A stretch of 43,170 nt of DNA, taken from Geobacter sp. (GTDB taxonomy: Bacteria; Desulfobacterota; Desulfuromonadia; Geobacterales; DSM-12255). Where the stretch lies: the NCBI GenBank assembly GCA_009886125.1, contig VFJK01000083.1:1-43170 (forward strand). The letters run 5' to 3'. Positions 32,951 through 43,170 of this stretch are shown here, piece by piece. The notes under the pieces were generated by a model. That model was not told the DNA's origin and ran no database searches. It saw only the letters and a list, made by a program, of their open reading frames with translations. The translations under genes were made by a program, and so were the position numbers. Numbering within the stretch: position 1 is the stretch's first letter; every line of letters begins with the position of its first letter.

Positions 32951-32980
32951 CCTCAGCACCGAAAGGGGTGAATACTGAGG
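32951..32980 (-). other. Two-step hairpin upstream of the lipoprotein operon
   Basis: CCTCAG-CACC-GAAAGG-GGTG-AATA-CTGAGG folds into a nested hairpin in the gap between the IS3 element and the lipoprotein gene. There is no T-run on either side, and I match it to no known riboswitch. It may be a leftover of a gene end lost at the IS border. Confidence in any function is low. Confidence 0.3.
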
Positions 32981-33033
32981 TGGCCGGGTTTAGTGAGACA
33001 GCCTGAGCAGAAGAATAAGCAATTCACCGATAT

Positions 33034-33044
33034 TGTAGTGGTTG
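33034..33044 (+). repeat. IS3 left terminal inverted repeat
   Basis: TGTAGTGGTTG lies 17 bases beyond the orfB stop and matches the inverted right end TGAAGTGGTTG at 10 of 11 positions. IS3-family ends typically begin with TG. The exact outer base could be off by one or two. Confidence 0.7.
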
Positions 33045-33050
33045 TAGGCT

Positions 33051-33887
33051 TCAGGCAGCCTCTTTCAGTTTATTAAGCCCTTGGAAATAAGCCTCATCAG
33101 GTGTTCGTTTGTCAAGTGATGAATGTTTCCGTTTCTCGTTGTAACCGGCAAACCAGATTGTCAAATCTTTGAAAAGCTCAGCTCCTGTTTCGTACGTTCT
33201 CAGGTAGATTCTTTCGTACTTCAGAGTACGCCAGAGCCTCTCGATGAAGATGTTGTCCTTGAAGCGCCCTTTTCCATCCATGCTGATCTTTACATCCCAG
33301 GTTTTTAGCACGGAGGTGAAGGCTTCACTGGTAAACTGACAGCCCTGATCCGAGTTGAATATCTCAGGTGCTCCGAATTTAAAGAGAGCTTCTCTCAGAG
33401 CCTCAACGCAGGATCTTGTATCCAGAGTATTTGAAAGCCGCCATGACAGCACCTTTCTGGTGGCCCAGTCCATGATAGCCACCAGGTACATGTGGCCCTT
33501 ATGCATAGGGATGTAAGTGATGTCGGTTGCCCATACCTGGTTAGGGCGGTCAATTGTTACTCCCCGCAGCAGATAGGGATAGACCGGATGCTTTGGCTGC
33601 CGTTTGCTGGTGCCCGGTTTAGGAGACAACGACACGATACCCATGATGAGCATCAGCCGCCGAACTCGATCACGCCCTACAGGTGATTCAGGAGACGTAA
33701 GCTGATCTGCCAGTGTGCGACTCCCCATCCAAGGCTGTTCCAGATAGAGCTCATCTATCAGGCGCATCAGCTCAAGATCGCCTTGACGCATACCTGATGC
33801 AGGACCACGGTAATAGCTGGCACGGGGTACACCCAGAAGCTGGCAGCGCCGTTCAACAGAAACTTCAGGATGACCGGTGGCAATCAC
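33051..33887 (-). CDS. IS3-family transposase OrfB (DDE integrase domain)
   Basis: The 278-residue protein is the catalytic half of the IS3 transposase. A HTH_21-like segment is at about 34-90 and the integrase core begins at RPNQVWATDITYI. The catalytic triad is D122 (TDITY), D180 (NSDQG) and E216 (FIERLW), giving the DD(35)E spacing. It starts at GTG 33887, overlapping the orfA stop by GTGA. Many IS3 elements make OrfAB by -1 frameshifting; here the overlap is stop-start, so re-initiation is also possible. The frame is intact. Confidence 0.93.
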   Translation of the reverse strand: MIATGHPEVSVERRCQLLGVPRASYYRGPASGMRQGDLELMRLIDELYLEQPWMGSRTLADQLTSPESPVGRDRVRRLMLIMGIVSLSPKPGTSKRQPKHPVYPYLLRGVTIDRPNQVWATDITYIPMHKGHMYLVAIMDWATRKVLSWRLSNTLDTRSCVEALREALFKFGAPEIFNSDQGCQFTSEAFTSVLKTWDVKISMDGKGRFKDNIFIERLWRTLKYERIYLRTYETGAELFKDLTIWFAGYNEKRKHSSLDKRTPDEAYFQGLNKLKEAA

Positions 33888-34192
33888 TTGTTGTTTCTGC
33901 GCCCGGCCAAGTTCAGACCGGGCAGATGTGACAAAAAATCGTTCTCAACCTTGAGCTTGCCGATCAAGCGGTGAAGGTCGGCAACTTCGCTATCATGGTT
34001 GACTTCTTTCTTCTTGCCCTTGCCAAAGAGGTCAGGAGCGTTCGCTATCAGCTCCTGTTTCCAGCGATTGATCTGGGTCGGATGAAGCTGAAACTCACTT
34101 GCAAGCTCTGCCAGGGTCTTTAATCCCGACAGGGCGGCCAAGGCTACCTTGGCCTTAAATTCTGCGCTGTGACGTGTACGATGTTGTGGCAT
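33884..34192 (-). CDS. IS3-family transposase OrfA
   Basis: OrfA is the DNA-binding partner of the IS3 transposase. From ATG 34192 (MPQHRTRHSAEFKAKVALAAL) it has 102 residues, with a helix-turn-helix (LAELASEFQLHPTQINRWKQEL) and then a leucine-zipper-like helix (VADLHRLIGKLKVENDFL) for oligomerisation. An AGGAG site is eight bases upstream. A longer reading from 34237 is possible but starts close to the IS end and lacks a ribosome site. Its stop overlaps orfB. Confidence 0.9.
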   Translation of the reverse strand: MPQHRTRHSAEFKAKVALAALSGLKTLAELASEFQLHPTQINRWKQELIANAPDLFGKGKKKEVNHDSEVADLHRLIGKLKVENDFLSHLPGLNLAGRRNNK

Positions 34193-34250
34193 ATGAACTC
34201 TCCTCTCAATGTAGGTCGGTTCATTGCTTATACTCATGTCTCAAAAAGCG

Positions 34251-34261
34251 CAACCACTTCA
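34251..34261 (-). repeat. IS3 right terminal inverted repeat
   Basis: CAACCACTTCA, read inwards as TGAAGTGGTTG, lies 59 bases beyond the orfA start. It pairs with the left end at 33034. The reading frame of the receiver domain continues without a stop across this border, so the border sits in former coding sequence. Confidence 0.7.
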
Positions 34262-34677
34262 AGTCAACTCAACTTCATAAAGATGTTGCAGCAGGAAAGT
34301 CCCTTCGTGGTCATGAGACTATTTTGATTGTGGAGGACGAAAAGGTTATCTTGGAAATGATAACTGTGTATCTTGAGGAACTTGGATACACTGTACTGAA
34401 AGCTTTTACCCCAAGTGAAGCTATTCGCCAAGCGGGTGAGCACAATCGTGAGATTGACCTATTAATAACCGATGTCGTAATGCCAGAAATGAACGGCATG
34501 GAACTTACCAAGATGCTGTCATCACTCTACCCTCAAATTAAGAACGTATTTATGTCAGGGTATACGGCAGATATAATAGCTCAACATGGCGTACTTGATG
34601 AAGGGACACATTTTATCCAGAAACCATTTCATTTGGATGTCTTTGCTGCCAAGGTGCGAGAGGTGCTAGACAGTTAA
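34262..34677 (+). pseudogene. C-terminal receiver domain of a truncated hybrid histidine kinase
   Basis: From the IS border the frame gives STQLHKDVAAGKSLRGHETILIVEDE, then LLITDVVMPEMNGMELTKML with the phospho-acceptor Asp, MSGYT, and FIQKPF with the conserved Lys; it ends at VREVLDS. The GHETILIVEDE start and the short DVAAGKSLRG linker are typical of a receiver at the C-terminal end of a PAS hybrid sensor kinase, not of a free response regulator. The open frame continues backwards into the IS element, so no native start exists. The kinase part is gone. It could still be translated from a chance start in the IS, but I regard it as a remnant. Confidence 0.8.
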
Positions 34678-34953
34678 AAAGTCAGTTATACAGCAATCCA
34701 GTATGGTGCTTAAGATTTAATTTGAAACATACCTTGCGACTAAAATTCATTGGTCGCTTTCGCCGGAACGCTGGTCGGATTCACAGCGGATTGCCGGTCA
34801 CTTTCATGTCAGTTTCTTTGGTCGGATTCACCGGAATAGCCAGTATTCGCGCCGCTAGAAGAAATAGGACCGATGATGAATCTGGTTACGCGCAGATAAG
34901 AGGGAAATTATAGCAATGGATAACTCCACTTTCACCATAAAGAATGACCGTTG
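34678..34953. other. Gene-free stretch with repeated GGTC...TTC...GGA motifs (IS21-like end remnant)
   Basis: No gene is visible here. Four related units begin at 34752, 34773, 34796 and 34820: GGTCGCTTTCGCCGGAA, GGTCGGATTCACAGCGGA, GGTCACTTTCATGTC and GGTCGGATTCACCGGAA, spaced 21-24 bases. A further CCACTTTCACC lies near 34926 and an inverted GGTCATT near 34944-34950. Multiple 20-odd-base terminal repeats of this kind are typical of IS21-family ends. The stretch ends just where the histidine kinase fragment stops (34954), so it may mark the insertion that cut that gene. No transposase gene remains. Confidence 0.45.
34752..34840 (+). repeat. Four tandem GGTC(A/G)nTTCnCCGGAA-type units
   Basis: Units start at 34752, 34773, 34796 and 34820. 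Units 1 and 4 are closest to one another; unit 3 is the most decayed. They resemble the repeated transposase-binding units at IS21-family ends. Assignment rests on motif memory, without a search. Confidence 0.45.
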
Positions 34954-35127
34954 TCAGGGGAGTTCCGCGCCTGTCAGAGTGAACACCTGATCGCCCTGAG
35001 AACCTGAAACAACGATGGCATCTACCCCGCCGCCCCGGATAGCGCTGATTGTCTCTTCAGCTTCTGAAGGCCTAATCCGAAGCGATTTGATATCTTCAAG
35101 AAGCTGCTTTTCGTTTTTGTTATCCAT
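34954..35127 (-). pseudogene. N-terminal fragment of a PAS hybrid histidine kinase, third gene of the kai operon
   Basis: ATG 35127, preceded by AGAGGGGC, opens a 57-residue frame: MDNKNEKQLLEDIKSLRIRP, then ETISAIRGGGVDAIVVSG, QGDQVFTLTGAELP and stop. This AIRxGxVDAlVVsG...vFtLxGAe string is the usual opening of large PAS hybrid kinases in Geobacter-like bacteria, which continue with PYR and a PAS domain. Here the frame stops at once after GAE-LP, exactly where the repeat remnant begins. It starts 11 bases after kaiB, so an output kinase for KaiBC was probably encoded and is now lost or displaced. Confidence 0.7.
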
Positions 35128-35138
35128 AAAAGCCCCTC

Positions 35139-35429
35139 TTATTTCGGGCGCAAATCCAGGCCCACAAGAATACGCTCGGTGGCTGACATATCGCCGACAA
35201 ACTTTCTTAACGGCGTAGGCAGTTTTCTCAAGAGCGTCGGCACCGCAATAATCTGATCCCCCTTTGCAAGCACTGGCTGCTGGTAGATATCGATCACTTC
35301 AAGATCATAGCGCCCTTCGAGATATTCTTCACAGATTAGCTTAATATTCTCAATAGCCCGGACTGAGTTTGGGGTTGTCCCGGCCACATAGAGCCGCAGA
35401 ACATTTTCGACCGCTTTTGATTTTGACAT
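35139..35429 (-). CDS. kaiB: KaiB-like clock protein
   Basis: KaiB is a fold-switching partner that binds KaiC rings in the cyanobacterial clock. The 96-residue product reads [20 protein letters not shown] and later [21 protein letters not shown], then [24 protein letters not shown]. These match the conserved LYVAGnTPnS...VIDvxxxPxlAexDkIlAtPTL...vGDlS pattern of KaiB proper. It follows kaiC by 15 bases on the same strand. No kaiA is present, which is usual outside cyanobacteria. In such bacteria a timing or stress role is suspected but not proven. Confidence 0.93.
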
Positions 35430-35444
35430 GACAATTGTCCCCCC

Positions 35445-37151
35445 TTACTTATCCGCCTTGCGGAGTTTTCCCATGTCAGCGCGGTCTTGTACCGTGACCT
35501 TTTCGCTCAGTTTCTCCTCGGCAACAGCCCTTTTCAAATTATCTTCCTCGGACTCAAACTCGGTGCGCATGGCGGTGATTTGCGCCTCCAGGATCTTGCG
35601 TTTTCGCTCCAGTTCGCGCTGCATAAACTCGAACCCCTGTTTGCCTATCAGGGCTTCAGCCTTTTCAACGGCCTCCTGGGAGAGCCTTGCCGAGCCGGTC
35701 AAAACGCCTGCTGCGCCGACATAGACATCTTGCAACTCTATCCCCTTGTCGGTCAGCAAGAGTTCTCTGACCTGATTGGAATGTTTCATGCCGCGTGACT
35801 TCAGGATATACAAGGACCGATTGCGCTCGCCGTTTACTTCAAGGTCCCTGAGGAGTAGCCAGGTATCCATCAGGGAAGAGATCCCGACAGCTGTCTCTTC
35901 CAGAGAATCAGACTGGGTGAGATTGGTAAATATGCCGGTTATAATGCTCGCTTTAAGAAAGTCAGCGAGACGAGTAATCATCGATTTTGTTTCTTTTAGA
36001 GTGCCTATATTCATCAGATTCGAGATCGGATCAATGGCGACAACATCCGGCTTGAATTCCTTGATCTGTTTATGGATGGTTACCAGGTGCATTTCAAGGC
36101 CGTAGAGGCTGGGCCGTGCTGCATGGAAACGCAAAAGACCTTTCTTGATCCAGGGTTCAAGGTCGATGCCGATAGAGCGCATGTTTCTGATGACCTGCGC
36201 CGGAGATTCCTCGAAGATGAAAAAGAGACAGCGCTCACCCCGTTTGCAGGCCGCATTGATAAATTCCGAAAGGATGCTGGTCTTGCCCGAACCTGATGTG
36301 CCTGACACCAGGATGCTGCTGCCGCGGTAATAGCCATTGCCGGTAAACATGGTGTCAAGGCGAGGAATGCCTGTCGAAATCTTTTCGTCGGATACGGCAT
36401 GGTCAAGGCCCATTGATGTTATCGGCAAAATGGAAATGCCCTGCTCATCGATCAGAAAAGGATAGTCGTTGGTGCCGTGCAGAGAGCCGCGGTATTTTAC
36501 AATCCTCAGTCGACGCGTGGCTATCTGTTCCGTAGAGACGTGGGCAAGGGTTATCACGCAATCGGCGACATACTCCTCCAGACCATAGCGTGTCAGGGTT
36601 TTCTCCCCCTGTTCGCCGGTAATGATGGCGGTAACGCCTTTCTCCTTCAGCCAGCTGAAAAGGCGCCTCAGCTCGGCGCGAAGGATAGCTTCATTGCTAA
36701 AACCTGCAAACAACCCTTCTATGGTGTCGAGCACAACCCGCTTTGCCTTGACAGTATTAATCGCCAGCTCCAGACGGACAAAGAGCCCTTCAAGGTTAAA
36801 CTCTCCAGTCTCCGACATCTCGCTCCGTTCAATCCGGATATAGTCTATATCGAGCAATTTGCGTGATATAAGGTCATTCAGATCAAACCCAAGGGCGGCG
36901 AAATTCTTCGTAAGGTCTTCAGGAGTCTCTTCAAAGCAGATAAATACTCCGGGTTCATTGTACTGGAGCGCCCCCCGCAGCAGAAACTCCATGGCAAGGA
37001 CGGTCTTGCCGCAGCCTGCGCTGCCGCAGACGAGCGTGGGTCTTCCCTGGGGCAGCCCGCCTCCTGTTATCTCATCCAGTCCCTGTATGCCGGTGGGGCA
37101 TTTTGTTAATCCGATCATGACTGATTTATTTGTTTTATTCTGCTTGGGCAT
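35445..37151 (-). CDS. kaiC: KaiC-like double-ATPase clock protein
   Basis: From ATG 37151, with AAGGAG six bases before, the protein has 568 residues. It has two RecA-type domains: CI with Walker A GSAGCGKT (43-50) and catalytic Glu pair E74/E75 (CFEETPEDL), and CII with GTSGSGKT (284-291) and E314/E315 (FEESPAQV). The autophosphorylation site aligned to cyanobacterial S431/T432 reads I-S425-S426, with T420 in the place of T426. CII therefore looks able to autophosphorylate, with Ser-Ser instead of Ser-Thr. After about residue 490 comes a charged coiled-coil tail (EAVEKAEAL...RELERKRKILEAQI) longer than that of the cyanobacterial protein, and there is no sign of a KaiA-binding end. It leads the kaiC-kaiB-kinase-fragment operon. 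Confidence 0.93.
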   Translation of the reverse strand: MPKQNKTNKSVMIGLTKCPTGIQGLDEITGGGLPQGRPTLVCGSAGCGKTVLAMEFLLRGALQYNEPGVFICFEETPEDLTKNFAALGFDLNDLISRKLLDIDYIRIERSEMSETGEFNLEGLFVRLELAINTVKAKRVVLDTIEGLFAGFSNEAILRAELRRLFSWLKEKGVTAIITGEQGEKTLTRYGLEEYVADCVITLAHVSTEQIATRRLRIVKYRGSLHGTNDYPFLIDEQGISILPITSMGLDHAVSDEKISTGIPRLDTMFTGNGYYRGSSILVSGTSGSGKTSILSEFINAACKRGERCLFFIFEESPAQVIRNMRSIGIDLEPWIKKGLLRFHAARPSLYGLEMHLVTIHKQIKEFKPDVVAIDPISNLMNIGTLKETKSMITRLADFLKASIITGIFTNLTQSDSLEETAVGISSLMDTWLLLRDLEVNGERNRSLYILKSRGMKHSNQVRELLLTDKGIELQDVYVGAAGVLTGSARLSQEAVEKAEALIGKQGFEFMQRELERKRKILEAQITAMRTEFESEEDNLKRAVAEEKLSEKVTVQDRADMGKLRKADK

Positions 37152-37594
37152 AAAATTCTCCTTTTCTACCAAGGGAACCTGGAATTAACATTTTCCTGTT
37201 AAAGCAAAAATACCGGCGTACAGACATATCCGCAGCGCCGGTTTAAAATGGATGAATCTGAATAATAGTCGACAAGAGGGCTTTCAGGGAAAGACTTTTC
37301 CTGCCTGCCTGCCTGCCTGCCTGCAAAATATTATTGCCAAGTGAAACACCTCATGGGCAGAATTCTATGGTGTAACTATATCGCTATTCCACCAATTTAC
37401 AATCAGTAACGCTGGAATATTTACTAACCTCAAAACAGACCAAATATTCTTATAATGTGGCATTCTCTCTTCAAATACGACGCTGAATTAAGAGCAGATT
37501 TCCAGTCTCTGATCGGCATCGTCCACTTTTTTGCAATATTTTTCAGTGCCAGACAAAGGAACAAGATAACTGGAAAACAGGCACCACCGTTTCA
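37152..37594. other. Gene-poor spacer upstream of kaiC
   Basis: These 443 bases lie between the divergent kaiC and the truncated S41 gene. They contain a hairpin (ACCGGCG at 37212-37218 with CGCCGGT at 37236-37242) in the likely kaiC leader and the CTGC repeat at 37301-37324. I find no convincing sigma-70 pair for kaiC. A TATAAT at 37451 lies before a short open frame from ATG 37455 (59 codons, MWHSLFKYDAELRADF), which I do not accept as a gene because it has no ribosome site; it may be part of the decayed front of the S41 gene. Confidence 0.6.
37301..37324. repeat. Tetranucleotide repeat (CTGC)6, 150 bases before kaiC
   Basis: Six perfect CTGC units in a row lie in the spacer upstream of kaiC. 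Such short repeats change length by slipped replication. If the kaiC promoter lies at or beyond it, unit number could alter promoter spacing or leader length. No coding frame crosses it with confidence. Confidence 0.95.
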
Positions 37595-38311
37595 ATGGAT
37601 GTGCTGCCACGCAACGGAATTAAGCGGAAAGTGAACGTGACCATCGGCAACAATATCCGGGACCCGCCCATGAGCCGGATCATTACGACCAGGCATGGGG
37701 AAAAGGTCGGTTACCTATACTTGCACAGCTTCACTGCGTCCCAGTTCGATAACATTGAAAAACATTTTCTAAAATTCAAACGGGCCGGGGTCAACAACCT
37801 GGTACTGGACCTGCGCTATAACAGCGGCGGAAATGTAGGCGATCTGGTCAAATTGGGGAGCCTTATTGTCAGCCAGGAGTTCGATGGAAAGCAATTTGTC
37901 AGGCTTGAGCACGGCCAGCGTTATGAAGACCGAGATGAGGATTATGCTTTCAAACGACAGCCGCAGTCCATTTCTGCCAGTCTGGTTGTTGTCCTGACAA
38001 CTAATGACACCTGTTCAGCCAGCGAAGCGGTCATCAATGGACTTAGTCCATACATCCCTATCACCACAGTCGGTTCCACCACCTGCGGCAAACCTTACCT
38101 GATGGAATTGCTCGAATTTGGCGACAAGACACTTTTTCCTGTAACGGGTAAGATCCTTAATAGTCGAGGAAATGCAGATTATGAAAAAGGCATTAGACCC
38201 GACTGCCGGATGCAAGATGACACATCGCATCAACTGGGTGATCCGCGAGAAGGGATGCTGAAAACGGCAATTACATTTCTTGAGACTGGGAGTTGTTCTC
38301 ATTCCAATTAA
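37595..38311 (+). pseudogene. S41-family (C-terminal processing type) protease, 5' truncated
   Basis: The 238-residue frame covers the catalytic part of an S41 peptidase. It has LVLDLRYNSGGNVGDL at 69-84 and the Ser/Lys dyad: S141 in TCSASEAVINGL and K166 in TTCGKPY, 25 residues apart as in known members. The family normally has a signal peptide, an N-terminal region and a PDZ domain; only the end of a PDZ-like stretch (NGIKRKVNVTIGNN) is left. ATG 37595 has no good ribosome site, and the frame runs open upstream without a credible start. I therefore treat it as a truncated gene; a short active protease is possible but less likely. Confidence 0.65.
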
Positions 38312-38548
38312 CATCGGATGAGCTTCATTATTGGTAGTAATTGGCCCCGATGCGAGAAATTATAGCGGCTGGAACTGCCAAGCTTTAGAGGTGAGTCAAC
38401 TGTGGGTGATGAGGTAGGGTACAATACTGAAAGGGTTTTCTTTTCACGGCCTCCGGCATACACCGATACAGATTAAAGAGAATATTATCAACTTGAATTC
38501 TGTAGGCTGCATAGGTAATGTACCGTTATCATTTACAGGAGTTAATTA
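38312..38548 (+). promoter_or_regulatory. Spacer with probable promoter for the IHF-like gene
   Basis: No gene is seen in these 237 bases. TTGAAT (38493-38498), 17 bases, and TAATGT (38516-38521) form a plausible sigma-70 promoter whose start point would be near 38528. AGGAG follows at 38537-38541, before ATG 38549. A GTGAGG-rich region at 38390-38425 with TACAAT lacks a partner -35 and is not counted. Confidence 0.5.
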
Positions 38549-38824
38549 ATGACCAAAGCGGATATTGTTGAGCGTGTTTTCTTGAACGCGGGAGGTTGCA
38601 AGAAAGATTCAGTAGAACTCGTTGAATCTGTTTTCAGCGCCATGAAGGAAACTCTTCAACGTGGGGAGAACTTGAAGATAACAGGCTTCGGCAACTTTGT
38701 TGTCAAAGCTAAATCAGACCGTAAAGGACGGAACCCACAGACCGGAGAGACCATTACCATTGAAGCTCGTCGGATAATTTCATTTATGCCGAGCAATGTT
38801 CTCCGTAATGCTATCAACAAATGA
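38549..38824 (+). CDS. IHF/HU-family DNA-bending protein (IHF alpha-like)
   Basis: The 91-residue product has the HU/IHF fold: helices, then ITGFGNFVVKAKSDRKGRNPQTGE, the beta-arm with the R61-N62-P63 tip whose proline intercalates into DNA, then ARRIISFMPSNVLRNAIN. The NPQTGE...ARRiisF pattern is closer to the IHF alpha chain than to HU. It would bend DNA as a homodimer or with IHF beta from elsewhere. It stands alone here, without pheT or other usual neighbours of ihfA, in a stretch that carries an attachment-site scar and truncated genes, so it may be cargo of the integrated element. Confidence 0.9.
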   Translation: MTKADIVERVFLNAGGCKKDSVELVESVFSAMKETLQRGENLKITGFGNFVVKAKSDRKGRNPQTGETITIEARRIISFMPSNVLRNAINK

Positions 38825-38840
38825 TTCCTGTCTATAAGCT

Positions 38841-38867
38841 AAGTATGCGCTAAACACCAAGTATGCG
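38841..38867 (+). repeat. Direct repeat AAGTATGCG x2, candidate operator
   Basis: AAGTATGCG occurs at 38841-38849 and again at 38859-38867, 18 bases apart start to start, directly before and touching the -35 box of the toxin-antitoxin promoter. Regular spacing near two helical turns suits a repressor such as the Xre-type antitoxin encoded downstream. Binding is inferred. Confidence 0.5.
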
Positions 38868-38896
38868 TTGACAACATATAATGTTTTTGGTACGGT
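38868..38896 (+). promoter_or_regulatory. Probable promoter of the toxin-antitoxin pair
   Basis: A perfect TTGACA (38868-38873), 17 bases and TACGGT (38891-38896), the latter preceded by TGG as an extended -10. A TATAAT at 38877 is too close to this -35 and has no good partner. With the first choice, the start would lie near 38903, so the toxin may begin at ATG 38913 instead of 38901. Confidence 0.5.
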
Positions 38897-38900
38897 GAAT

Positions 38901-39164
38901 ATGAAGAGTCCGATGAATGCAGCAGATGCAAAGAAACTGCTCAAAAGAATTTTAGAGTTTGGCGAAGTAACTTACTCGCAACCACACGCAGTTGACCGAA
39001 TGAAGGAACGTACTCTTTCAATGGTTGATTGTGAGAATGTTTTACGTGGTGGGAAAATAGAACCTGACGGGGTTAACCGATTTAAGGTCAGCACCAACAA
39101 ACTAACCGTAGTCATTGAATTTATATCAGATGACGAAGTTCTTGTTGTTACTGTTTGGAGGTGA
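38901..39164 (+). CDS. DUF4258-type toxin (MqsR/RelE-like size)
   Basis: Counting from ATG 38901 the product has 87 residues, MKSPMNAADAKKLLKRILEFGE, with the SQPHAVDRMKERTLSMVDCENVLRGGKIEPDG stretch and LTVVIEFISDDEVLVVTVWR end. The H-A-x-x-R-M-x-x-R helix followed by a beta sheet with I-V-T-V-W is how DUF4258 proteins look, a family placed with RelE/BrnT-like toxins. It is directly followed, two bases on, by an MqsA-like antitoxin gene. A toxin-first order is typical for mqsRA and higBA. An RNase role is an inference. The start could also be 38913. Confidence 0.8.
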   Translation: MKSPMNAADAKKLLKRILEFGEVTYSQPHAVDRMKERTLSMVDCENVLRGGKIEPDGVNRFKVSTNKLTVVIEFISDDEVLVVTVWR

Positions 39165-39166
39165 TT

Positions 39167-39667
39167 ATGATTTGCCACGAATGCAATAAATCAGAAATGA
39201 TCGAGCGACATGAAAATGTTCGCTACGATGAATCAGGTCTGCCAAATGTGGTACTCGAAGCGGTAAAGGTTCGTCAATGCCCTACTTGCGGCAATCGACT
39301 TGTCACCATTCCGCGTTTATCTGAACTACATAGATGTATTGCTGTGCATCTTGTAAAGAAGATTGCTCGTCTTGCGCCTGCGGATATCCGTTTTTTGCGT
39401 AAATCACTTGGATGGTCTAAAAATGATTTCGCAAAGAAAATGCATGTAAATATAGAGCAGGTATATAGATGGGAAAGCGACAAATCTCCAAAACCAATGA
39501 TGATTCAGAGCGAGCTTTTGCTTCGTGCATTTGTTGCTATTGGAAAGAAAATTGAAAACTATGACGAGCAAGTAGACCAATTGGCTACTATTGATGACTT
39601 GGAAGTTTCACCATTTTCCATGGTATTCGACAATGGCTGGCATGAGCATCAATTGGTAGGCGCTTGA
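39167..39667 (+). CDS. MqsA-type antitoxin (zinc finger + Xre helix-turn-helix)
   Basis: From ATG 39167, with GGAGGTGA in front, the protein has 166 residues. Two CxxC pairs (C3/C6 and C38/C41) make the N-terminal zinc domain that binds the toxin in MqsA. A helix-turn-helix follows at about 73-108 (FLRKSLGWSKNDFAKKMHVNIEQVYRWE). The tail to 166 is longer than that of E. coli MqsA (131 residues). It would neutralise the toxin and repress the operon, perhaps at the AAGTATGCG repeats. Confidence 0.88.
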   Translation: MICHECNKSEMIERHENVRYDESGLPNVVLEAVKVRQCPTCGNRLVTIPRLSELHRCIAVHLVKKIARLAPADIRFLRKSLGWSKNDFAKKMHVNIEQVYRWESDKSPKPMMIQSELLLRAFVAIGKKIENYDEQVDQLATIDDLEVSPFSMVFDNGWHEHQLVGA

Positions 39668-39869
39668 TTGAACAATGAGAGTCATTACTTCCATAAGAAA
39701 TTCAGACGGACACGGGTATCTTTCGCAAAACTTTCGCAGGTTGTAGTAGATTTCGATGTAAACTGATGTACCTAGATGGACGGACACCACAGGAGATCAG
39801 TTTTTAAGTACTTGTATTTATTGGTTGTTTTAGCGATTCCATTAATAGTGTTTTTTACGTTTCGACCTG
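39668..39869. other. Gene-free arm next to the tRNA-Gly attachment scar
   Basis: No gene, and no clear promoter, is seen. TTTCGCA occurs twice in close tandem (near 39710-39727), and the last 90 bases are T-rich. Flanks of integrated elements often hold short repeats for integrase arm-binding, which these could be. No integrase gene lies within the window. Confidence 0.4.
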
Positions 39870-39892
39870 TTCGAATCCCGTTTCCCGCTCCA
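39870..39892 (+). other. Attachment-site scar: 3' end of tRNA-Gly(GCC)
   Basis: The 23 bases from the T loop (TTCGAATCCC) through the acceptor strand TTCCCGC, discriminator T and encoded CCA equal the 3' end expected for tRNA-Gly(GCC), a tRNA known for T at the discriminator. The bases before it (GACCTG) do not form the matching T stem and no tRNA body precedes it, so this is a piece, not a gene. Tyrosine integrases often use exactly this part of a tRNA gene, so this is very probably an att site. Confidence 0.8.
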
Positions 39893-39902
39893 AAAAGCAT
39901 TT

Positions 39903-39930
39903 AAAAGGAATCTTTCGGGATTCCTTTTTT
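39903..39930 (+). terminator. Terminator after the tRNA-Gly 3' piece
   Basis: AAAAGGAATC (39903-39912) pairs with GATTCCTTTT (39919-39928) around TTTCGG, followed by a T-run. It lies 11 bases after the tRNA CCA, as a tRNA gene terminator would, so it likely belonged to the original tRNA-Gly gene and was kept on the chromosomal side of the crossover. Confidence 0.85.
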
Positions 39931-39975
39931 GTATTTGAAAAACTAGCACGTCTTTTGGACCAAAAAATGGGGTAA

Positions 39976-40341
39976 GGTCATCAGGGATTCTTCATATTCG
40001 GACTCCCTGGTGAGACCGAAACAACGATGATAGAATCAATAGAATTCGCCAAGCGTTCAAAACTTTCAGGCGCTCAGTTTTGCGTACTGGATATCCTGCC
40101 GGGATCAGAGCTGTGGGACAATCTGCAAGGGAAATTCATTTCAAACTGGGGTAAAAACAGTTATAAAGAGCCGGAATGGATCCCGGATGGGCTGACAAAA
40201 GAAAAAATAATGTCATTCCAGTCCCGGGCATTCAGGCAATTTTATCTAAGGCCGAAAATTATTTTTAAATTTATTAAGATGATTAATTTAAAACAGATAG
40301 GATTTATATTGAAAAGATTGAGTGATTACCGATTGTATTAA
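39976..40341 (+). pseudogene. C-terminal fragment of a radical SAM enzyme (B12-binding/BchE-like)
   Basis: After an in-frame stop at 39973 the frame gives GHQGFFIFGLPGETETTMIESIEFAKRS, the typical mid-to-late radical SAM stretch (GFFIFGLPGET), then the LDILPGSELWDNL end of B12-binding type members. The CxxxCxxC cluster and the B12 domain, which would lie upstream, are absent: the sequence before is the tRNA-Gly scar and terminator. So the gene has lost its 5' part at the island border. It converges with the FAD oxidoreductase, ending two bases from it. Confidence 0.82.
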
Positions 40342-40342
40342 A

Positions 40343-41677
40343 TCATTTAGTCCTATACCTCTCAACCATAGAATCAACAGCTTGGACCCCCTGCATAAAG
40401 GAATGATCCATATTCCCCTCCTCGTACTTCCATCCACCGAATCGTCCGCGTGAATATATATCTTTGGACTCAAGATAGGGCTGGATAGAACCAAGCGCCC
40501 TGTCTCGACCCAATTCCGGGACAGGATAGGAGTATGGGATATTGATCAGATAGCTGCTGACAAGTCCATCTCTTTCTTTATTTGAAATCATACCGGTTTC
40601 TATCAGACCCTGCAAAGTCGCCTCAACAACGGTCGCTTCACTGACAGGTTTGTGTTCTGAATACGTCGTCTCGCACATGAGAGAAAAATATCTCTCCGAG
40701 ACAGATTCTGGAACATTATTCGGAGAGTAGTTGTGAAAATTGGTCACCCGGTAAAAAGGAGAGCTGCTTTCCGGGAAATACATCCAGCATTTCGGATCAA
40801 CCCTTTCCCCTTTGAAACCGAGCCCGACGATCAAGCCGCTGTTATGGACAAGTTTTTCGGAGGCTTCTTTAATTTCGAATGGCAGAGAAGTACATGAATC
40901 AACAAAAAGATCCAGCGGAGAGGTGTTCAACAGATAATCATATCTTTCGATCCTGCCATTTGAAAAACAGACCTCTTTTTGTATAACATCAACAGTGACC
41001 ATCTCATGATCAAGATGAATCCTGTCACTGAATTTCCGAGCAATCCCTTGGTAAATCGCTCCGGTTCCGCCATGTTCCGGAAACCTGAAAACAGCATTTG
41101 GTCCCCAGCTCAGATCATCACGCTGTTCGGAAATGTTTCGCTCGATACGGGAAATATCGACCAGGCTCACCCGTTCAGCGATCCACTCTTTTGACATACT
41201 CTGCAGAGGGACTCCCCAGACTTTTCGATTGTACGGCTCCATAAAGTACTTGACGATACCGCTTCCGAAAACAGAGTGCATCCAATCATAAAAATTGGCT
41301 GTATGAACCTGAGTCCCCTGTAGTGACCGTAAGCCGTTTATGCACTCCTGAAGTACGTCATCCGGAAGATAGCGTACATTGTTCTGGAACGGATACGGCA
41401 CCCATCTCTGCAAAATCCGGATCCAGCTTTCTCGCTGGTGTTCAAAATATGAATCGCCCAAGGACTCTTCTACAGCTTTATCAAAATAATCATAATGTGA
41501 GAACAGGACATGCCCGCCAATATCCCAGGTAAAACCCTTGTCATCTCTGAATGATGCGGAGAGTCCACCGACATGATCGCTCTTGTCAAAGAGAGCCCAG
41601 TCGCTGTAGCCAAGCTTGTTCAGGTGATAAGCTGCGCCGAGTCCGCATGGTCCGGCACCGAGGATGAGGATTTTCAA
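40343..41677 (-). CDS. FAD-dependent oxidoreductase (protoporphyrinogen oxidase/UDP-galactopyranose mutase-like)
   Basis: The 444-residue protein starts with a dinucleotide-binding fold, MKILILGAGPCGLGAAYHL, then FDKSDHVGGLSASF and WDIGGHVLFS, where flavin-dependent amine-oxidase-like proteins contact FAD. EPYNRKVWGVP and FPEHGGTGAIYQGIARKF are typical of the group of HemY-like proteins found in surface-polysaccharide clusters, and the C-terminal GRFGGWKYEEGNMDHSFMQG closes the FAD site. I cannot tell the substrate; a sugar-modifying role is more likely than haem synthesis given no haem genes here. It ends two bases from the radical SAM fragment and starts 17 bases from AbiEii. Confidence 0.85.
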   Translation of the reverse strand: MKILILGAGPCGLGAAYHLNKLGYSDWALFDKSDHVGGLSASFRDDKGFTWDIGGHVLFSHYDYFDKAVEESLGDSYFEHQRESWIRILQRWVPYPFQNNVRYLPDDVLQECINGLRSLQGTQVHTANFYDWMHSVFGSGIVKYFMEPYNRKVWGVPLQSMSKEWIAERVSLVDISRIERNISEQRDDLSWGPNAVFRFPEHGGTGAIYQGIARKFSDRIHLDHEMVTVDVIQKEVCFSNGRIERYDYLLNTSPLDLFVDSCTSLPFEIKEASEKLVHNSGLIVGLGFKGERVDPKCWMYFPESSSPFYRVTNFHNYSPNNVPESVSERYFSLMCETTYSEHKPVSEATVVEATLQGLIETGMISNKERDGLVSSYLINIPYSYPVPELGRDRALGSIQPYLESKDIYSRGRFGGWKYEEGNMDHSFMQGVQAVDSMVERYRTK

Positions 41678-41694
41678 AGTGTTAGAGCACCTTT

Positions 41695-42591
41695 CTACAT
41701 CTTGAATAAAGGAGCGTTAAGCTTCCCGGACAACGAATCAATTACCTGATCACATTCTGCCATAACGAGACTCGTCAAAAAAAACCAAAAGGATTTATTT
41801 TCTACCGTTTCGATAACGATATTCGATGGCAAAAAGCGCTTCATCTCCTGTTCAAAGGCAATGCGCAAGCCAGCATCTATCTTAAGTAATTCCCGGCGAT
41901 CACTGAGTAATCCCACAAAACTATCCACCGAATGACGATGATCGGCAATCTTTCTCTCCACTAACTCAATTGGTAAAAGTATCCCCTGCTGTTTCAACCA
42001 GACAATATCCCAGAGATCACGATTTTTGATTCGTCCCGGACGCAGCGCCAGGGCGACCATTTTGTCAGCCAGTATTTCTTCCCGGCTTTCAACCTGCAAA
42101 ATCAACCCCGATGTCCCCATGTCAATACCATAATAGTTGCGCAACATCATTGGCCGTTTGTCATAACTGGGCACTGCACACACATCAATATTGATCCGCT
42201 GTACAGGCATCCCTTTCTGCTCCGGACGAGTCACCATCTTCAGCTTCCAGGTATCTACATTGCCTGTCTCCCGCCTGGGCTCACTGACCTCTACCTTCAA
42301 TCCATATTTTGTGAACAGCTTTTCAATTAGCAGTGTTGGGAGTTTGCTCAAAGATTCTCGACTGAAATCTATACCGCCAGTGAAATCAAGATCTTCACTC
42401 AAGCGGTTCGAACCGTAACATCCCCTCAGACAGGTTCCACCAATAAACGTCAACTTTTCAAGCAAGCCGATGCTACTCATCTCTCTAAGGATATCGTGAT
42501 GCAGAAGCTCTTTTTCCACAACCATTGAGAGTGGATTCAAGGTAGCATTATCTATCATTGCCTGAGCAACCAGGCGTTCAAACAGGCTCAT
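41695..42591 (-). CDS. abiEii: AbiEii-type nucleotidyltransferase toxin
   Basis: The 298-residue protein carries the nucleotidyltransferase motif GGTCLRGCYGSNRLSEDLDF (51-70), with D67 and D69 as metal ligands, then INIDV (133-137, D136), and the later EEILADKMVAL and NRDLWDIVWL stretches usual in AbiEii. AbiEii toxins add nucleotides to tRNA acceptor ends or block growth in a similar way and can stop phage spread. It overlaps the antitoxin gene by 14 bases, so the pair is coupled. Both genes read on the minus strand from the promoter at the window end. Confidence 0.92.
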   Translation of the reverse strand: MSLFERLVAQAMIDNATLNPLSMVVEKELLHHDILREMSSIGLLEKLTFIGGTCLRGCYGSNRLSEDLDFTGGIDFSRESLSKLPTLLIEKLFTKYGLKVEVSEPRRETGNVDTWKLKMVTRPEQKGMPVQRINIDVCAVPSYDKRPMMLRNYYGIDMGTSGLILQVESREEILADKMVALALRPGRIKNRDLWDIVWLKQQGILLPIELVERKIADHRHSVDSFVGLLSDRRELLKIDAGLRIAFEQEMKRFLPSNIVIETVENKSFWFFLTSLVMAECDQVIDSLSGKLNAPLFKM

Positions 42592-43135
42592 TCACAACAC
42601 CCCAGTCTATCAAATCAAGATTACGTCTGGCTGCCTTCATATCCCTTAGAGCCAGCGCCACGGAAGCACGCCAGAGATGGCAGCGCGCATCATACTCAAG
42701 TTGATCCTTGAGATCTTCAGGTTTTTGCGACGTATGAACAAACTCTATCGTTCCCCAATCACCACAACGTATCACATTACTTCTGCCGGTTGACATAAGC
42801 GTAATCCAGTTGATCGGAACTTGAGAAATTACCCCTGAATCACTCAAGGCAGTTTCAAAGCTTATGTAATTAAATTCATCGGCTCGCAGCCTGGCTGCAG
42901 CATGAAATAACAGCAATCCCTGTGGATATTTCACTTTTGGATAGAGATAGAGCCCTCGACAGACACGCCTGAAAAGACCTGCCTTTTCAGCTCGGCTTAT
43001 CAGAACTTTAAAAGCGCCGGGGCTTAATGTAAGGTGAACCGCACGCAGATCGGAAAGGGTGAAGAGGTAGTGATCATCCGTCGCAAGTGATTCAATAACG
43101 TTCGTAAGTTGCTTGATCGGCTGGAGCGTTGACAT
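42578..43135 (-). CDS. abiEi: AbiEi-type antitoxin and transcriptional repressor
   Basis: The 185-residue protein has an N-terminal winged helix (LFTLSDLRAVHLTLSPGAFKVLISRAEKAGLFRRVCRGLYLYP), matching the AbiEi_3-like antitoxin pattern, followed by FNYISFETALSDSGVISQVP, a segment shared by AbiEi families. AbiEi represses its own promoter by binding inverted repeats. ATG 43135 has no Shine-Dalgarno sequence, but it lies seven bases after the -10 box, so the message is predicted to be leaderless. It overlaps abiEii by 14 bases. If the real transcript starts outside the window, the start choice would stay the same. Confidence 0.9.
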   Translation of the reverse strand: MSTLQPIKQLTNVIESLATDDHYLFTLSDLRAVHLTLSPGAFKVLISRAEKAGLFRRVCRGLYLYPKVKYPQGLLLFHAAARLRADEFNYISFETALSDSGVISQVPINWITLMSTGRSNVIRCGDWGTIEFVHTSQKPEDLKDQLEYDARCHLWRASVALALRDMKAARRNLDLIDWGVVNEPV

Positions 43136-43170
43136 GACATAAAGTTACACTAACTGTAACTTTATGTCAA
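43135..43170 (-). promoter_or_regulatory. abiE promoter inside a perfect inverted-repeat operator
   Basis: On the minus strand TTGACA (43170-43165), 17 bases and TAACTT (43147-43142) form a promoter; the abiEi ATG starts seven bases after the -10. TGACATAAAGTTACA (43135-43149) and its exact reverse complement (43155-43169) flank the five bases CTAAC, so a 15-bp perfect palindrome covers both promoter boxes. This is a strong candidate AbiEi operator. Confidence 0.85.

Follow-up and report, generated by a model that had tools for sequence, protein, structure and literature searches.

A lone tRNA-Gly(GCC) tail in a Geobacter contig as the very probable right attachment site of a decayed integrative element

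The window analyzed here is a 43,170-nucleotide contig of Geobacter sp. (VFJK01000083.1, hereafter C97). Near its right end, at positions 39869–39892 of the plus strand, it carries GTTCGAATCCCGTTTCCCGCTCCA, the exact 3′ end of tRNA-Gly(GCC) including the CCA. As ARAGORN detects no tRNA at this position, the tail stands without a tRNA body. A preliminary description of this DNA had reported such an orphan tail, correctly except for its length, which is 24 rather than 23 nt. The sole tRNA that ARAGORN places in the window is tRNA-Trp (276–352), and a search for a second island border inside the window returned none. An intrinsic terminator lies 3′ of the tail on the plus strand, at about 39903–39931. 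Its fold (about 39903–39928; −13 kcal/mol, z −4.3) was equaled by no shuffled sequence, in keeping with the earlier judgment that the terminator is a good one. As a mark of integration, however, it fails: similar structures follow tRNA-Gly in relatives, and since most of the examined tRNA-Gly copies and lone tails are followed by one, the terminator alone is no evidence of integration. Rfam yielded no family match within 37000–43170.

To the left of the tail, and all on the plus strand, lie an S41 peptidase gene that has lost its N-terminal part (37595–38311; Pfam), a gene for an IHF-alpha-like DNA-bending protein (38549–38824; PF00216, E = 2e-27, with IHF-alpha models closest), a gene for a DUF4258 protein that is a putative toxin partner (38868–39164; PF14076, E = 2e-6), and a gene for an MqsA-family antitoxin-like regulator with a zinc finger and an HTH (39161–39667; TIGR03830, E = 3.7e-20, above the cut-off). 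The last two form a conserved pair, side by side at 16 of 20 further loci in the order, and probably represent a type II toxin–antitoxin operon of the MqsA kind in which the toxin is putative. The S41 remnant encodes 238 aa, the C-terminal part of proteins that measure 771 and 802 aa in relatives; just upstream of it is a short CCTG tetranucleotide run (37298–37325). A full-length S41 gene adjoins a lone tRNA-Gly tail in relative G005, which supports the S41 gene as cargo of an element, and we read the IHF-like gene and the DUF4258/MqsA pair as cargo as well. Farther left are KaiB and KaiC genes on the minus strand (35139–37172; Pfam and NCBIfam) and, on the plus strand, a receiver domain that forms the 3′ end of a GAF/PAS hybrid histidine kinase gene (34262–34677; Pfam). 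The IHF-like, toxin–antitoxin and truncated protease genes first named as left-hand neighbors are borne out by Pfam and NCBIfam, but the DNA beyond 34261 is misjoined, as described below, and is not a neighbor.

On the right side, the tail is followed by the C-terminal 114 aa of an HpnJ-like radical SAM protein, whose gene is indeed cut at its 5′ end as originally noted, and then by FAD oxidoreductase and AbiE genes. With a truncated radical SAM gene beside the scar, the right flank has been disturbed as well. Comparison of window positions 39600–40360 with 38 relatives in search of a common right flank gave matches to the tail and terminator only. The AbiEi/AbiEii type IV toxin–antitoxin pair occupies 41695–43135, and relative G013 (L112) likewise has an AbiEii gene close to this FAD oxidoreductase gene.

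The tail can be placed in context through 42 loci of named genomes that encode related integrases. In 34 of these, the end of the integrase gene is 76–200 bp away from either a tRNA-Gly gene or a lone tail of one, and in many another lone tail lies at a distance of 4–10 kb. Related elements, mostly 4–13 kb long, that share this integrase, these arms and the lone tails are spread across Geobacterales. The preliminary description had reasoned that the scar would be old chromosomal sequence if relatives devoid of accessory genes carried the same tail here; instead, where relatives have a bare tail downstream of a full tRNA-Gly, an integrase-bearing element lies in between, and in no other genome searched does the right flank of the window adjoin the tail. 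Tandem arrays, with lone tails between successive elements, stand behind tRNA-Gly at L065 (G017), L063 (G008) and L214 (G005).

Directly left of the tail, at 39712–39854 on the plus strand, we identified a candidate attR arm region, with a CTTTCGCA-n2-CTTTCGCA direct repeat at about 39722–39740 and a TGGACGGAC module further right. An attR arm profile built from relatives only, with the window excluded, matches this region with E = 6.6e-10, and a second, larger attR set gives E = 3.7e-9. With a merged profile, 42 of 44 matches (E of 1e-3 or better) fall just upstream of a tRNA-Gly core. The region and the attR of the L169 element share 69% identity over 176 bp. To the right of the scar, the corresponding attL profile recovers the terminator only (E = 0.96), with no arm repeats and no integrase. 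Since the attR profile matches on the left and the attL profile fails on the right, the scar is a right border; attL polarity is ruled out. The original idea that the tail marks one end of an integrated element is thereby upheld. Separately, intact elements show weak further matches to the attR motif around GGACTnAAGAC upstream of int (L063:7176–7200, L061:11675–11701 and L065:15473–15509; E = 0.003–0.3), which would fit a single protein binding at attR and at the int promoter alike.

The polarity also bears on the alternative that the tail is a junction within a tandem array, the attR of one element and at the same time the attL of a second whose integrase has been lost on the right. Arrays of this structure do exist in relatives, and the right-hand terminator resembles those at some attL ends. 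Yet the terminator is all that the attL profile recovers there, and the genes on that side are those for radical SAM, FAD oxidoreductase and AbiE proteins, which leaves this reading unlikely.

The other border appears to lie on a second contig, C48. The exact 24-mer occurs at two places only in the 3.57-Mb genome, for which the chance expectation is 2.5e-8: at the scar and in the tRNA-Gly(GCC) at C48:2790–2864, upstream of tig, which is the only intact tRNA-Gly(GCC) found. Abutting the 3′ end of this tRNA is the C-terminal third of a tyrosine integrase gene, 5′-truncated, with 134 codons behind a stop (PF00589, E = 5.5e-9); no other strong match of this integrase family was found in the genome. 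The search for a tRNA-Gly(GCC) adjoined by an integrase gene, proposed at the outset, was thus positive, and the expectations that an integrase might lie beyond the other end and that the element might be decayed both proved sound, the integrase being a remnant. The attL profile from relatives matches C48 with E = 8e-7, so that candidate arm-type sites flank the core on both sides. The repeat CTTTCGCATGAACTTTCGCATG lies between the C48 tRNA and the integrase remnant, and CTTTCGCAAAACTTTCGCAGG is found to the left of the scar in the window. Several relatives' elements, the L065 array and L169 among them, share one type of arm repeat in attL and attR, and the L169 element combines an attL resembling that of C48 with an attR resembling that of the window. 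The 8-mers shared between attL and attR tell the repeat type but do not on their own identify C48 as the one partner.

Between the CheB/CheR gene and the integrase remnant, at about 2230–2370 of L056, a stretch read by eye as a possible transposase remnant suggests how the integrase gene lost its 5′ part. A different candidate partner, the element in tRNA-Gly(CCC) on contig C83, was rejected as a distinct element that has an integrase and a 47-bp tail duplicate of its own. This 17.4-kb element spans 1841–19314 of L057 (G000:C83), and its genes, judged from open reading frames read by eye, include some resembling a type I restriction system.

How C48 and the window are linked becomes apparent at a multicopy IS3-family insertion sequence (IS) in the window (32976–34261, minus strand), which we assessed through its genome copies and their flanks. 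Five other contigs (C125, C134, C133, C34 and C137) end inside the same IS3, and its two flanks in C97 carry unlike 3-mers, TAC and AGT. Matching 3-bp duplications are found elsewhere: AGT at the end of C137 pairs with AGT at 34262, TAA of C125 with TAA of C134, and the left TAC of C97 with TAC of C133 or C34; at a related IS, CAG of C137 pairs with CAG of C48. In random trials, a partner for all four left flanks arose once in 200,000. The interrupted reading frames continue accordingly. The end of C137 reads ...YLPRYEGK and continues at 34262 with STQLHKDVAAGKSLRGHETILIVEDE, giving a hybrid histidine kinase. The flanks of C48 and C137 read ...CTGAAATCGAATGAAGAGCTG and CTGCGTACCACCCGTGAAGAGATG..., that is, LKSNEEL followed by RTTREEMQTTHEEL, as in CheB/CheR-PAS proteins. 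Joining C133 to the left part of C97 restores a split macrodomain-like gene (so named from sequence motifs rather than a family search), whose position ahead of the same genes is shared by 10 of 11 relatives; C133 is the continuation of the ribosomal part of the window, left of the IS. Because the duplications match and the frames continue, 34262–43170 is placed after C137, and C137 after C48. The order C48–C137–right part of C97 would put both borders in one molecule, although it is derived from duplications and reading frames across contigs and is not contained in any one contig. The middle of the first IS is absent from the assembly.

The window is thus chimeric at the IS3, most likely through an assembly error in which unrelated DNA was joined across the repeat, hiding the link between the island ends. 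If C97 were instead correct, a real recombination between IS3 copies would have moved the right half of the island beside ribosomal operons, and the island ends would now lie far apart. IS copies do recombine, and C97 as assembled covers a full IS copy; against this, the ends of five other contigs inside the same IS are the usual sign of an unresolved repeat, and the matching duplications that the C97 flanks lack are supplied by C137 and C133 with intact frames. We consider such a rearrangement quite improbable.

In the order favored here, the island would measure about 15.8 kb from tRNA-Gly to scar, or about 18.4 kb with two IS copies, and the 24-bp repeats at its borders would be identical and in the same orientation. 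From left to right it would comprise tRNA-Gly, attL, the integrase remnant, the CheB/CheR-PAS gene (interrupted by an IS), genes for histidine kinases, receivers and a T2SSE ATPase, the hybrid kinase gene (interrupted by an IS), KaiB/KaiC, the S41 remnant, the IHF-like gene, DUF4258/MqsA and attR. The position of KaiB/KaiC within the island follows from this order. Chemotaxis, KaiB/KaiC and kinase genes are not usual as cargo, and some of those in the interior could be old chromosomal sequence; in relative G004, too, a CheB/CheR gene is found 10 kb downstream of tRNA-Gly. No excisionase-like gene was recognized in the island, and the genes read on C48, on C137 and at window positions 34262–39868 include no intact int, no HTH gene and none for the conserved 150-aa and 290–390-aa proteins. 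From the gene set of the Geobacterales tRNA-Gly element family, the integrase C-terminus alone remains.

Taken as a whole, these features make it very probable that the scar is the attR of an integrative element, now decayed and about 18.4 kb long, that had the 3′ end of the tRNA-Gly(GCC) gene upstream of tig as its insertion site. We propose that a tyrosine recombinase (Int), bound to paired CTTTCGCA-type arm repeats on both sides, recombined two identical 24-bp sequences, the core of a circular element (attP) and the tRNA tail (attB). Integration would have rebuilt the tRNA at attL with the 3′ end copy borne by the element, leaving the original tail and its terminator at the far end as attR; the interior genes may all have arrived with this one element. 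It would since have become fixed, with int cut to 134 codons, no recognized excisionase-like gene and two IS3 copies landed inside. With no intact integrase, it is expected to be inactive unless helped in trans. That the 24 bases survive from an old duplication of a tRNA gene, with no tie to integration, is exceedingly improbable: some genomes of the order do have two tRNA-Gly(GCC) genes, but the attR arm region lies directly left of the tail in the right register, and the left border on C48 fits the same element family.

In islands targeted to tRNA genes by tyrosine recombinases, the tRNA 3′ end serves as the core, attL holds the rebuilt tRNA, a direct repeat of the tail marks attR, and int lies beside the tRNA. 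The element described here is alike in all four respects and is unlike such islands generally in its decayed int and mobility genes and in the two IS copies inside it. Its assignment as a decayed member of this known kind of island is well supported. In Geobacter metallireducens, according to the portion of the published account consulted (PMC1924859), an island is likewise flanked by tRNA-Gly, a pseudo-tRNA stands at a distance of 6.6 kb, and phage-like integrase genes are close by; the island differs in its size of about 300 kb and in carrying genes for the degradation of aromatics, and that portion describes neither its attachment sites nor its arms.

Closer counterparts are the elements at L169, L148, L155, L166, L063 and L214, which share the integrase family, the core, the kind of arm repeats and cargo ending at attR. 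These are mostly 4–13 kb long, and many have an intact int and an HTH (excisionase-like) gene, whereas the window element is about 18.4 kb long and has neither. A literature search found no named family of small tRNA-Gly elements in Geobacterales, which is weak evidence. The chances seem to us evenly balanced that small, modular integrative elements of Geobacterales, which insert in tandem behind tRNA-Gly, make up a distinct and as yet unnamed family to which this border belongs, with the window element as a decayed, enlarged member. Each element of such a family would add a new tRNA tail and terminator; the family would be distinguished by an arm-repeat type of its own and would carry small cargo, for example toxin–antitoxin, nuclease and protease genes.

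These results also indicate how such borders can be studied in fragmented genomes. Arm profiles from relatives make a bare tRNA tail testable as an attachment site and give its polarity, and IS duplications together with broken reading frames give contig order. Inferences from neighboring genes across 32976–34261 are unsafe, the contig being misjoined there. The wider tRNA-Gly element family, present in many Geobacterales, offers a test bed for tandem integration and arm-site specificity.
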